Shown here in pieces: positions 58,144 through 60,742 of a DNA stretch of 64,000 bases. The notes below the pieces were generated by a model. That model was not told the DNA's origin, made no database searches, and was given only the letters and a program-made list of their open reading frames with translations. This DNA comes from Halostella litorea (GTDB lineage Archaea > Halobacteriota > Halobacteria > Halobacteriales > Natronoarchaeaceae). The translations under genes were made by a program, and so were the position numbers. Positions within the stretch are counted from its first letter, which is position 1, and each line of letters begins with the position of its first letter. The stretch lies in assembly GCF_004785955.1 (NCBI RefSeq), contig NZ_ML214300.1, positions 423,223 to 487,222 of the forward strand, given 5' to 3'.

Positions 58144-59082
58144 ATGAGACTCCGGAACATCGCGGCCGCCGCGGCCGGCGGGCTCGGCGCGACGGCGCTC
58201 GCCAACGCGGCGCTTGCGCGGCGCGCGGACCCGCTCGACGCCCCTCTCCCCGGCGACGAAGGGACGTACCGCTGGCGCGGGCTGGACGTGTCGTACACCG
58301 AGGCCGGCGACCCCGAGGACCCCGACCTGCTGCTCCTCCACGGCGTCAACGCCGCCGGCACGAGCATGGAGTTCGCGCCGGTGTTCGAGGACCTGGCCGC
58401 CGAGTACCACGTGATCGCGCCCGACCTCCCCGGGTTCGGCCGCTCCGGCCGGCCGCCGCTGCTGTACTCGGCGTCGCTGTACGAGTCGTTCGTGGCCGAC
58501 TTCGCCGGCGACGTCACCGAGGACGCCGTCTGCGTCGCGTCGTCGCTGACGGGGTCGTACGCGGTCGCCGCCGCCGAGACGGTCGACTTCGAGCGCCTCG
58601 TGCTGGTCTGTCCCTCCGCCTCGTCGATGCCCGGGCGGCGGGTGTGGCTCCGGACCCTGTTCCGGTCGCCGCTGGTCGGCACGGCGCTGTTCAACCTGGT
58701 CGCCAGCAAGTCCTCCATCCGCTATTTCAGCGCCGACCACGGCTACTACGACACCGACAACCTCTCCGACGAGAAACTCGACTACCAGTGGCAAAGCGCC
58801 CACCAGCCCGGCGCGCGGTACGCGCCGGCGTCGTTCATCAGCGGCTTCCTCGACCCGGATCTGGACCTGAGCGAGGCGGTCGCCGACCTCGACGTCCCGG
58901 TCACGCTCGTCTGGGGCCGCGAGAGCGACATCACGCCGCTGTCGGAGGGCCGCGACCTCGCCGACGAGGCGGACGCGCGGCTCGTCGTAATCGACTACGC
59001 GCGACTGCTCCCGCACGCCGAACACCCCGACGAGTTCCTCGACGCGGTCGCGCGGGAGCTACCGCGGGCGGAAGGCGAGTAA
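58144..59082 (+). CDS. alpha/beta-fold hydrolase
   Basis: 312 residues. The N-terminus is hydrophobic (IAAAAAGGLGATALANAALA) and may anchor it. Landmarks are DLLLLHGVNAAGTSMEFAPV (oxyanion region), VIAPDLPGFGRSGRPP near 96 and the nucleophile area CVASSLTGSYAVAA near 138. The nucleophile elbow is A-S-S-L-T rather than G-x-S-x-G. Catalytic His is in LPHAEHPDEFLD near 298. It may cleave esters or be an inactive relative. It overlaps the convergent OB-fold gene by 24 bases. Confidence 0.78.
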   Translation: MRLRNIAAAAAGGLGATALANAALARRADPLDAPLPGDEGTYRWRGLDVSYTEAGDPEDPDLLLLHGVNAAGTSMEFAPVFEDLAAEYHVIAPDLPGFGRSGRPPLLYSASLYESFVADFAGDVTEDAVCVASSLTGSYAVAAAETVDFERLVLVCPSASSMPGRRVWLRTLFRSPLVGTALFNLVASKSSIRYFSADHGYYDTDNLSDEKLDYQWQSAHQPGARYAPASFISGFLDPDLDLSEAVADLDVPVTLVWGRESDITPLSEGRDLADEADARLVVIDYARLLPHAEHPDEFLDAVARELPRAEGE

Positions 59083-59454
59083 GCGCCGCCCCGTCGTCTC
59101 CGACGCCTCGACGGCGAGTTCGACCGGCAGGCCCGCCTCCGCCTCGTCGGGGTCGACGCCCCGTAGCTGGCCGGTCAGCCGGACCGGGCCGAACCGCGCG
59201 ATGGCCGTGACGTAGGGCGCGTCGTCGGCGAACGCCGGCGTCGCGACGTGCGCGACGGTGAACGTCTCCACCTCGCCGGCCGCCGGCAGCGGCTCCTCGG
59301 CCAGGTCCGGGTCCCCGCAGTCGGGACACACCGTCCGCGGCGGCAGCGAGCCGTGGCCCTCGGGACACGACAGGTAGTACGCCTCTCCGGCCTCCGCGGC
59401 GTCGAGGAAGTCGTCGTAGCCGGCGTCGCGCGCGCCGGTCGGGTCGTCGCTCAT
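59059..59454 (-). CDS. Zn-ribbon OB-fold protein (DUF35/ChsH2 type)
   Basis: 131 residues. A zinc ribbon made from CPEGHGSLPPRTVCPDCGDP (near 30-49) is followed by an OB fold (VETFTVAHVATPAFADDAPY, FGPVRLTGQLRGVDPDEAEA). Such proteins bind thiolases and the acyl-CoA site, for example the archaeal acetoacetyl-CoA thiolase/HMG-CoA synthase complex. It follows the thiolase on the same strand, separated only by the 59-base insertion. Its ATG is preceded by GGAGGT. Confidence 0.88.
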   Translation of the reverse strand: MSDDPTGARDAGYDDFLDAAEAGEAYYLSCPEGHGSLPPRTVCPDCGDPDLAEEPLPAAGEVETFTVAHVATPAFADDAPYVTAIARFGPVRLTGQLRGVDPDEAEAGLPVELAVEASETTGRRLLAFRPR

Positions 59455-59525
59455 GCGGCCACCTCCGGGGCGAAGCCCCGGCGTACCCGCGTTCGCTCGC
59501 TCGGCTCGCTCATGCGGCCACCTCC
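59447..59525. repeat. 59-base insertion flanked by 20-base direct repeats with an internal hairpin
   Basis: TCGCTCATGCGGCCACCTCC occurs at 59447-59466 and 59506-59525, a period of 59. Within it CCGGGGC-GAA-GCCCCGG (59465-59481) is a perfect hairpin, and the remainder is CG-rich with TTCGCTCGCTCGG. Removing one unit would fuse the thiolase stop directly to the OB-fold start (ATGA overlap). Read on the minus strand, the repeat carries GGAGGTGGCCGCATGAG, a ribosome site plus start. Confidence 0.8.
59455..59513 (-). other. 20-codon mini-ORF created by the insertion
   Basis: The insertion gives ATG AGC GAG CCG on the minus strand with a GGAGGTG seven bases upstream. The frame reads MSEPSERTRVRRGFAPEVAA and stops at the copy of the ATGA junction, so it could carry ribosomes from the thiolase stop to the OB-fold start. 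A product peptide is not claimed. Confidence 0.45.
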
Positions 59526-60676
59526 AGCACGTGGACGATGCAACTCGCCACCGTCCCGCCCGCGTTGTGCGCGACGGCGACCTCCGCGTCCGCGACCGCG
59601 TCGCTGTTGACGTGGTCGCCCCGGAGCAACTGGGTCACCTCGGCGACCTGCGAGACGCCCGTCGCGCCGACGGGGTGGCCCTTCGCCTTCAGGCCGCCCG
59701 ATAGGTTCACCGGGAGTTCGCCGTCCCGGGTCGTCTCGCCGCGCCGGGCCGCCCCGATCGCCTCGCCGGTCTCGTAGAGGTCGAGCGACTCCAGCGCCAG
59801 CGCCTCCGCGATGGTGAAGCAGTCGTGGACCTCCGCGAAGTCGACGTCCCCCGGCCCGACGCCGGCGTCGTCGTACGCCTCCGCGGCGGCCTCGTCGGCG
59901 GCCGGCGTGCGCGCGAGGTAGTCGCGGTCCTGCAGGGCCATCCCGTCGCCGCCCTGGCCCGTGCCCGTGACCGCGACCGGTGCGTCCACGCCCGTCCGCT
60001 CCGCGTACTCGTCGCTGACCAGCACCAGCGCGCTCGCGCCGTCGCTGATCGGGCAGGAGTCGTACAGCCCGAGCGGCTCGGCCACCGGCGGCGCGTCCAG
60101 CACGTCCGCGACCGTGATCTCCCGCTGGTACTGCGCGAGGTCGTTGCCGACGGCGTTGGCGTGGTTCTTCACGGCGATGGCGGCCAGGTCCTCGCGGTCG
60201 CCGCCGTACTCCTCGAAGTACGCCCGCGCCATCAGCGCGTACGCCCCCGGGAACGTCATCCCGGCCCGGACCTCCCACAGTTCGTCGGCGGCGATGGCGA
60301 GCGCCTCGGTCGCGCCCGCGGTCCCGAGGTTGGTCATCCGCTCGGCCCCGCCGACGAGGACGACCTCCTCCTCGCCGTTGCGGACGTCCCGGACCGCCGC
60401 CCGGAGCGCGGCCGACGAGGACGCGCAGGCGCTCTCGTAGCGCGTCGCCGGCGCGCGGACGCCCGCCGCCTCGGCCATCAGCGGCCCCTGGTGTCCCTGA
60501 CGCTCGGAGAGTTCGCCCATGAAGTTGCCGTACCGGAGCGACTCGACGTCCGCCCGCGGGACGCCCGCGTCCGCGAACGCCCGGTCGGCCGCCGTCCCGA
60601 ACAGGTCTCGCCCCGTCCGCTCGGGGGTTTCTCCGAACTCCGTCAGTCCGACGCCCGCGACGCGTACCCCTGTCAT
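59510..60676 (-). CDS. thiolase (acetyl-CoA acetyltransferase type)
   Basis: 388 residues from the ATG at 60676. The nucleophile Cys is in RYESACASSSAALRAAVR (near 87), with FAEVHDCFTIAEALALESL (near 290) and the C-terminal LSGGLKAKGHPVGATGVSQ. It lacks the usual second Cys loop of bacterial thiolases, as archaeal forms do. It could condense two acetyl-CoA for mevalonate synthesis, together with the DUF35 partner after it. HMG-CoA synthase is not in the window. Confidence 0.9.
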   Translation of the reverse strand: MTGVRVAGVGLTEFGETPERTGRDLFGTAADRAFADAGVPRADVESLRYGNFMGELSERQGHQGPLMAEAAGVRAPATRYESACASSSAALRAAVRDVRNGEEEVVLVGGAERMTNLGTAGATEALAIAADELWEVRAGMTFPGAYALMARAYFEEYGGDREDLAAIAVKNHANAVGNDLAQYQREITVADVLDAPPVAEPLGLYDSCPISDGASALVLVSDEYAERTGVDAPVAVTGTGQGGDGMALQDRDYLARTPAADEAAAEAYDDAGVGPGDVDFAEVHDCFTIAEALALESLDLYETGEAIGAARRGETTRDGELPVNLSGGLKAKGHPVGATGVSQVAEVTQLLRGDHVNSDAVADAEVAVAHNAGGTVASCIVHVLEVAA

Positions 60677-60742
60677 GGTGCCACGTAGACGACCCACGGG
60701 CTAAAGGGATCGGGCCGGACCGCCCGCGCGGTCGTTCCGTTG

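Follow-up and report, generated by a model that had tools for sequence, protein, structure and literature searches.

How can a 59-nt insert come to lie between two genes that would otherwise overlap by ATGA, and how might the translation of the second gene remain coupled to that of the first? The question arises at the junction of a thiolase gene and an OB-fold gene in the 64,000-nt stretch of Halostella litorea DNA analysed here (the window). According to the accessible text of PMC10666635, reinitiation in Haloferax volcanii is reduced by 60% at a distance of 13 nt and abolished at 22 nt in one gene pair, and two further pairs show next to none at 23 nt. SD motifs inside the upstream gene aid most of the pairs tested, though not all (PMC6728339, available in part), and distal operon genes bear a correctly spaced GGAGGT-like motif (PMC3986360, likewise in part). 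Since reinitiation in Haloferax fails beyond approximately 20 nt, going by the same portion of PMC10666635, tight gene overlaps are expected to resist insertions and, because of these distance limits, a 59-nt insert without a stop, a start and an SD of its own should uncouple the pair.

We consider it likely that the insert is a small palindromic, probably mobile repeat, which entered after the SD at the gene overlap and through whose mini-ORF the coupling is passed on.

The thiolase/OB-fold junction

Both genes lie on the minus strand, as do all of the features described below for which a strand is given. The thiolase gene is the upstream partner (59510..60697), assigned from its ORF, Pfam matches (PF00108/PF22691) and orthologues, and the ChsH2-like OB-fold gene (PF01796), assigned from its ORF and Pfam, is the downstream partner (59059..59454). 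The 3' end of the thiolase gene contains an SD-like GGAGGTG (59519..59525), which is common to the empty and filled sites of relatives and directly abuts the insertion point. The final thiolase codons, GAG GTG GCC GCA TGA, read E-V through this SD and stop on the element's TGA.

The 59-nt unit itself (59460..59518) is made up of a spacer, GCCGC, and ATGA, followed by a loop, an arm, a hairpin and a terminal GGAGGTG. The spacer and the first bases of the mini-ORF start form the 5' arm of stem I, GCCGCAT (59512..59518), supported by covariation; the complement of this region, the 3' arm ACGCGGG (59486..59492), is supported by covariation and by the pairing test described below. Hairpin II, CCGGGGC-TTC-GCCCCGG (59465..59481), is also supported by covariation and is perfect; the first-pass annotation gave it as CCGGGGC-GAA-GCCCCGG. 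The terminal GGAGGTG (59460..59466) is positioned to serve the OB-fold start as its new SD. A 20-codon mini-ORF, MSEPSERTRVRRGFAPEVAA* (59451..59513), has an ATGA overlap at either end. The ATGA junction and the SD are both rebuilt, in the manner originally proposed.

The 20-mer TCGCTCATGCGGCCACCTCC is present, as first noted, in two identical copies 59 apart (59447..59466 and 59506..59525, neither assigned to a strand). A 19-nt part of it, allowing up to 3 mismatches, matches twice in the 64 kb, where 0.05 matches would be expected, and none of 100 shuffles contained 2. Against R2, our model of the whole unit, in which looser relatives are included, the unit scores 75.1 bits (E 2.8e-15), and nothing else in the window falls below E 0.2, the next match having an E of 0.24. 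A BLASTN search of its own genome with the unit returned the site itself as the sole full match, together with 39 further matches, 14 of which were inspected and proved to be short SD/start or chance matches.

A family of units across the Halobacteria

A seed pattern of two SD-RTGA motifs, 25-55 nt apart, was searched in 391 genomes of the class and matched in 16 of these; a reversed control of the pattern gave no match among the matches listed. The seed matches were used to build R1, a covariance model of the 3' part of the unit that requires the terminal ATGA. At E<=0.01, R1 matches in 83 of the 391 genomes and R2 in 201. The gene downstream of the 88 R1 loci encodes an OB-fold protein in 40 cases, LeuD in 14, an HPr-like protein in 3 and ribosomal protein L13 in 3, and the remaining loci fall in 20 further clusters; gene names other than OB-fold and thiolase (LeuC, LeuD, HPr, L13) are putative, being read from protein starts. 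Four R1 singletons (L150, L159, L161 and L163) are weak and probably due to chance. Exact tandem arrays also exist, with five units at 59-nt spacing in one genome (G184).

Rfam gave 0 matches at E<=0.1 across 8 loci. A search for viral carriage with two patterns gave 0 matches in viral_contigs and none in phages, while six haloarchaeal plasmid records contain most or all of the query, three of the places being annotated as thiolase and OB-fold genes. The junction mini-ORFs are left out of the annotation of the two records inspected (the PLSDB gene tables being incomplete), which means that such units can escape gene calls.

We looked closely at 39 further R2 places, hand-picked as strong or multi-copy from among the matches listed. 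The weaker R2 matches, again among those listed, are intergenic and have the same order of parts as the junction units: a stem I whose loop opens with a sequence like RTGAGCG or CGAGCG, a link that is often GCTCGTC, stem II, and an end that is often GGTG. Several near-identical looser copies per genome are found in G217, G206 and G327, and looser relatives occur in the genus as well. It is R2 scores and this shared layout that tie the looser relatives to the junction units, and the GAGCGA-rich DNA of haloarchaea may inflate the scores.

Several of these places merit description in their own right. In G217, G206 and G327 there are near-identical two-hairpin repeats of 57-58 nt (L277-L281 and L312), of the form gggtg TCCCCGTGAGCGAG...GACGGTG, several to a genome and away from gene junctions, which possibly represent a larger source family. 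Strings of hairpins separated by GGTG, with TTCGA/TTCCA stems, precede a gene of ~260-285 amino acids in several genomes, at L145, L155, L162, L291, L296 and L297; the genes at the first three of these loci cluster as one family and those at the last three are similar at their start. At L290 (1530-1682), and likewise at L314, a two-hairpin unit lies in the apparent variable arm of a second, partial tRNA-Leu, and ARAGORN finds one intact tRNA-Leu(CAA) at each locus. A shorter GGTG-ended two-hairpin repeat with changed stems follows apparently matching stop codons at L377, L378 and L373 (in G003, G004 and G001, respectively) and may be an orthologous intergenic copy. Finally, longer leaders are found before LeuD/HPr genes at L086, L105, L140, L141, L154 and L158, where an extra hairpin, of the ACGCGAACGGG..CCCGTGAGCG type in several, is followed by a unit-like end, and where a proper upstream copy of the SD is absent.

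Filled and empty sites

Within the genus, the thiolase/OB-fold junction contains a 59-nt unit in the genome of the window itself (G000) and in G002 and G004, and is a plain ATGA overlap in G001 and G003. The first-pass annotation had proposed that, without the unit, the two genes would overlap by ATGA, and had suggested a search for empty sites in sister strains; removal of the 59 nt does restore this overlap, which is the actual state of two of the five genus genomes. Four of four further genomes of the family are also empty here. The same 59 bases in all relatives, at this place and nowhere else, would have spoken for a conserved regulatory piece, and what is found instead are empty sisters and related units at other gene pairs, in agreement with the insertion first suggested.

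For a census free of the unit model, 80 named thiolase loci were gathered by protein similarity. At 53 of these junctions the genes overlap by 4 nt, at 13 by 1 nt, and 14 are filled, with inserts of 50, 53, 59, 65, 118 or 119 nt that are all, by eye, units of the family. That of 118 nt consists of two 59-nt units, and in that of 119 nt a full unit seems to follow a decayed one. Mapped on the thiolase tree, the distribution of filled junctions requires 10 changes, all forced by well-supported branches; on that tree each may be either a gain or a loss.

The pattern is repeated elsewhere: at the ABC locus there is a unit in G003 and an empty site in G000, and at a second locus a unit in G002 and empty sites in the four other genus genomes. 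Of 16 LeuC/LeuD loci, 5 are filled, 7 are empty, 3 have a different junction and 1 is masked. The scattered presence of the units could in part reflect loss by recombination between flanking repeats, or transfer along with the thiolase/OB-fold genes.

The boundaries of the unit

A filled thiolase/OB-fold site in G304 reads GGAGGTG, 59 nt, ACGAACTGATGAGCGACTCC, and in Natrinema versiforme GGAGGTG directly abuts ACGAACTGATGAGCGACTCC. At this junction a duplication of GGAGGTG looks the same as an end borne by the element. The LeuC/LeuD junction differs in that an empty site reads GGAGGTG, 8 nt, ATGA/GTGA, and a filled one GGAGGTG plus 3 nt, the unit, 5 nt and RTGA; there is no duplication at the insertion point, and it follows from this layout that the unit's GGAGGTG end was not copied from an adjacent target. 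In Halorussus, Haladaptatus and Natrinema the downstream spacer is like that of empty sister species and the upstream spacer is unlike it, and an upstream spacer of GTCGC is found at 9 of 14 filled sites against 1 of 66 empty ones. As these four comparisons agree, we define the unit as running from spacer and RTGA through GGAGGTG, inserted after the native SD.

Most of the 20-nt 'duplication' is consequently, on the sequences compared, element sequence plus SD and no simple target duplication. An origin of the 20 bases as target duplication, as the repeat in the window might suggest, does not fit copies that often differ in relatives, nor an upstream spacer that is element-like beside a downstream one that looks native. 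The two spacers are identical in G000 and G002, where either the native spacer already had this sequence or the two were later homogenised.

Two-stem structure

In stem I the internal arm is base-paired with the spacer and start codon; stem II corresponds to hairpin II, which precedes the new SD. In an alignment of 36 units (A3), 86.1% of the cells of stem I and 95.6% of those of stem II are paired. Changes on both sides are seen at 10 of the 14 pairs overall and at 6 of 7 in stem I, and the cells with double changes number 62 compared to 17.8 in shuffled alignments, with 0 of 500 shuffles as high; sliding the partner by 1-3 columns abolishes the covariation signal. Where the start is GTG instead of ATG, the arm often carries the matching change (AU in 19 units, GC in 9, unpaired in 8). 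The unpaired 3' end is GGTG in all 36 rows.

A parser resolved 70 of the 88 R1 loci into units, 13 lacking an upstream SD+RTGA and 5 a second SD, and 65 of the 70 were kept for a pairing test, after repeats and units with an unplaced hairpin had been dropped; two units (L146 and L142) were misparsed in this test. The flanking copies differ in 35 of the 65, and here the better fit of the arm is to the upstream copy in 30 units and to the downstream copy in 1 (the misparsed L142), the remaining 4 being ties. When arms were shuffled among units, the observed pairing was reached in 0 of 5000 trials. Pairing of the arm with the downstream copy, as R1 was first read, has been replaced by this arrangement.

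Reading frame and coupling

Among 65 non-redundant units, 62 have a length of 2 mod 3. The exceptions, at 0 mod 3, are L080 and L101 (51 nt each) and L087 (60 nt), each of which precedes a second unit that rescues the frame. The chain of overlaps to the next ORF is intact, directly or through further mini-ORFs, in 67 of the 70 parsed units, from 48 genomes, a count that leans towards junctions, since R1 needs the terminal ATGA and the parser the upstream SD+RTGA; the 14 census inserts are free of this bias. The arrangement of termination-reinitiation coupled pairs, an SD followed by a 4- or 1-nt overlap of stop and start, is found in the same number of parsed units and in the census inserts too. 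The mini-ORFs are 17-20 codons long, and the RTGA at which they start also gives the upstream gene its stop. Since the arm is read in one frame in the 59-nt type and in another in the 50-nt type (MRVRQS against KATTPV, for example), it is the nucleotide structure and not the peptide that is kept.

With the family, its sites, its presence and absence, the covariation and the preservation of frame established directly, a course of events may be proposed. A palindromic, transposase-free repeat would insert just 3' of an SD, GGAGGTG, at an overlapping gene junction. The upstream gene would then terminate on the element's TGA, and a ribosome restarting at the overlapping ATG/GTG would translate the mini-ORF as far as the new SD and from there initiate once more on the downstream gene, at its native start; any unit that interrupts the chain would presumably be lost to selection. 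Because coupling would pass through the mini-ORF, insertion could be close to neutral. Reinitiation through the mini-ORF is modelled here on published Haloferax work with other gene pairs, and both mobility, as a process, and the loss of frame-breaking insertions by selection are what we infer from the patterns above.

Alternative explanations

The unit might be a degenerate IS605-type element (PATE), that is, the fused left and right palindromic ends of an IS200/IS605 element on which a Y1 transposase acts in trans. In keeping with such an origin, the unit has a palindrome near either end, lacks terminal inverted repeats, is too short for a transposase gene and shows no target duplication at LeuC/LeuD; the accessible text of PMC3119063 describes these features for Haloquadratum PATEs. 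The expected partner is missing from several carriers, however, as PF01797 (Y1 transposase) is absent from 7 of 19 genomes searched, 6 of which are carriers of the unit (G000, G002, G004, G138, G258 and G328), and the carrier G002 is without TnpB. Moreover, IS605-related ends were not found at 23 Y1 loci, where R2 gave nothing below E 0.11, or at 30 TnpB loci, where GGTG-tailed hairpins are as rare as in the window, that is, at background. A PATE origin therefore appears to us unlikely, if still worth considering, and IS200/RAYT and TnpB origins, which were tried as candidates, are unsupported for the same reasons: carriers without Y1, and Y1/TnpB loci without the unit's ends.

A second reading makes the unit a conserved regulatory leader or attenuator of the thiolase/OB-fold operon, whose hairpins and mini-ORF tune the level of the OB-fold protein relative to thiolase. 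The compensatory changes that maintain both stems would suit this, as would the ranking of sites, with thiolase/OB-fold the commonest (40 of 88 loci) and LeuC/LeuD second (14). We nevertheless judge it improbable, given that the unit is missing from 66 of the 80 thiolase/OB-fold junctions, recurs at many unrelated gene pairs, and neither keeps its peptide nor, between the 59- and 50-nt types, the frame of its arm.

A functional product of the mini-ORF, in the form of a small basic protein, is much less probable again: the frame is open in 67 of 70 parsed units and many peptides start MSERSER or similar, but the 17-aa and 20-aa types derive different peptides from the same arm and that of the window has no Pfam match. 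A local tandem duplication that acquired a hairpin, once, in the lineage of the window, the other origin envisaged in the first-pass annotation, would account for the flanking 20-nt direct repeats and has a likeness in the exact arrays of G184, but is scarcely credible when the same two stems recur in 83 of 391 genomes (R1) and at unrelated gene pairs, and the flanking copies differ in over half of the units tested (35 of 65).

Implications and comparison with known systems

Our preferred reading remains that of a small, probably mobile repeat at gene overlaps. We would add, tentatively and with rather less conviction, that it may act as a mobile reinitiation cassette, a selfish repeat, with a stop/start overlap and a ribosome-binding site for its ends, that colonises operon junctions without uncoupling them and has been reused by haloarchaea time and again at thiolase/OB-fold and LeuC/LeuD to adjust the ratio of subunits. 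Were this so, even junctions in ribosomal and ATP-synthase operons would be open to colonisation. A repeat equipped with a stop, a start and an SD of its own is one way past the resistance of an overlap to insertion, and the filled and empty pairs are natural material for testing reinitiation through the mini-ORF. The findings also point to a large group of GGTG-ended repeats in haloarchaea.

Among the papers listed on haloarchaeal repeats, palindromes, MITEs and coupling, no title or displayed abstract describes the unit, with the subscription literature mostly outside the scope of this survey. Archaeal REPs are counted by RepRanger (PMC12306157), in the accessible text of which 'Halo' does not occur. 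The nearest known kinds, going by the parts of the two sources available, are the PATEs, SMRs and MITEs of Haloquadratum (PMC3119063) and the GTAG/CGTC REPs (PMC3733652); an element that supplies a stop, a start and an SD at gene overlaps is not described in those portions of the PATE, SMR, MITE and REP literature compared.

The PATEs of Haloquadratum walsbyi resemble the units in having palindromes near their ends, no terminal inverted repeats or target duplication and a length that leaves no room for a transposase, and a 52-bp version composed of termini only has been reported (PMC3119063, accessible text). The units are set apart from PATEs in spite of this matching shape because the IS605 link was not found in the tests made; they also sit at SD/ATGA junctions and carry a stop, a start and an SD. 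MITEs have terminal inverted repeats shared with a transposon and there are none in the unit alignment, where neither end (GTCGC.. and ..GGAGGTG) is an inverted repeat of the other. The SMRs of Haloquadratum, as far as the same source is accessible, are likewise short and transposase-free, without target duplication and with a strong target preference. They have inverted terminal repeats, however, are 80-110 bp long and target mobile elements, whereas the units are mostly 50-59 nt, have no inverted ends and are sited at operon junctions.

GTAG/CGTC REPs are also small palindromes with an unpaired tetranucleotide at one end, found singly and in groups, and GTAG REPs often give flanking ORFs a stop codon (PMC3733652, available in part). 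The units differ in that their tag is GGTG, rather than GTAG or CGTC, in that they lie inside overlapping gene pairs and supply the stop, start and SD, and in that six unit carriers have no genomic Y1 transposase, the superfamily of the RAYTs. Termination-reinitiation coupling is the mechanism assumed at both junctions of the mini-ORF; the published pairs, in the text accessible, are ordinary ones, with no such insert named. The Rickettsia palindromic elements (RPE), as reviewed in the accessible part of PMC10969869, are likewise palindromic and open in frame within coding DNA, but they are ~150 bp long and form in-frame fusions inside ORFs, whereas the units described here lie between ORFs as a separate mini-ORF.
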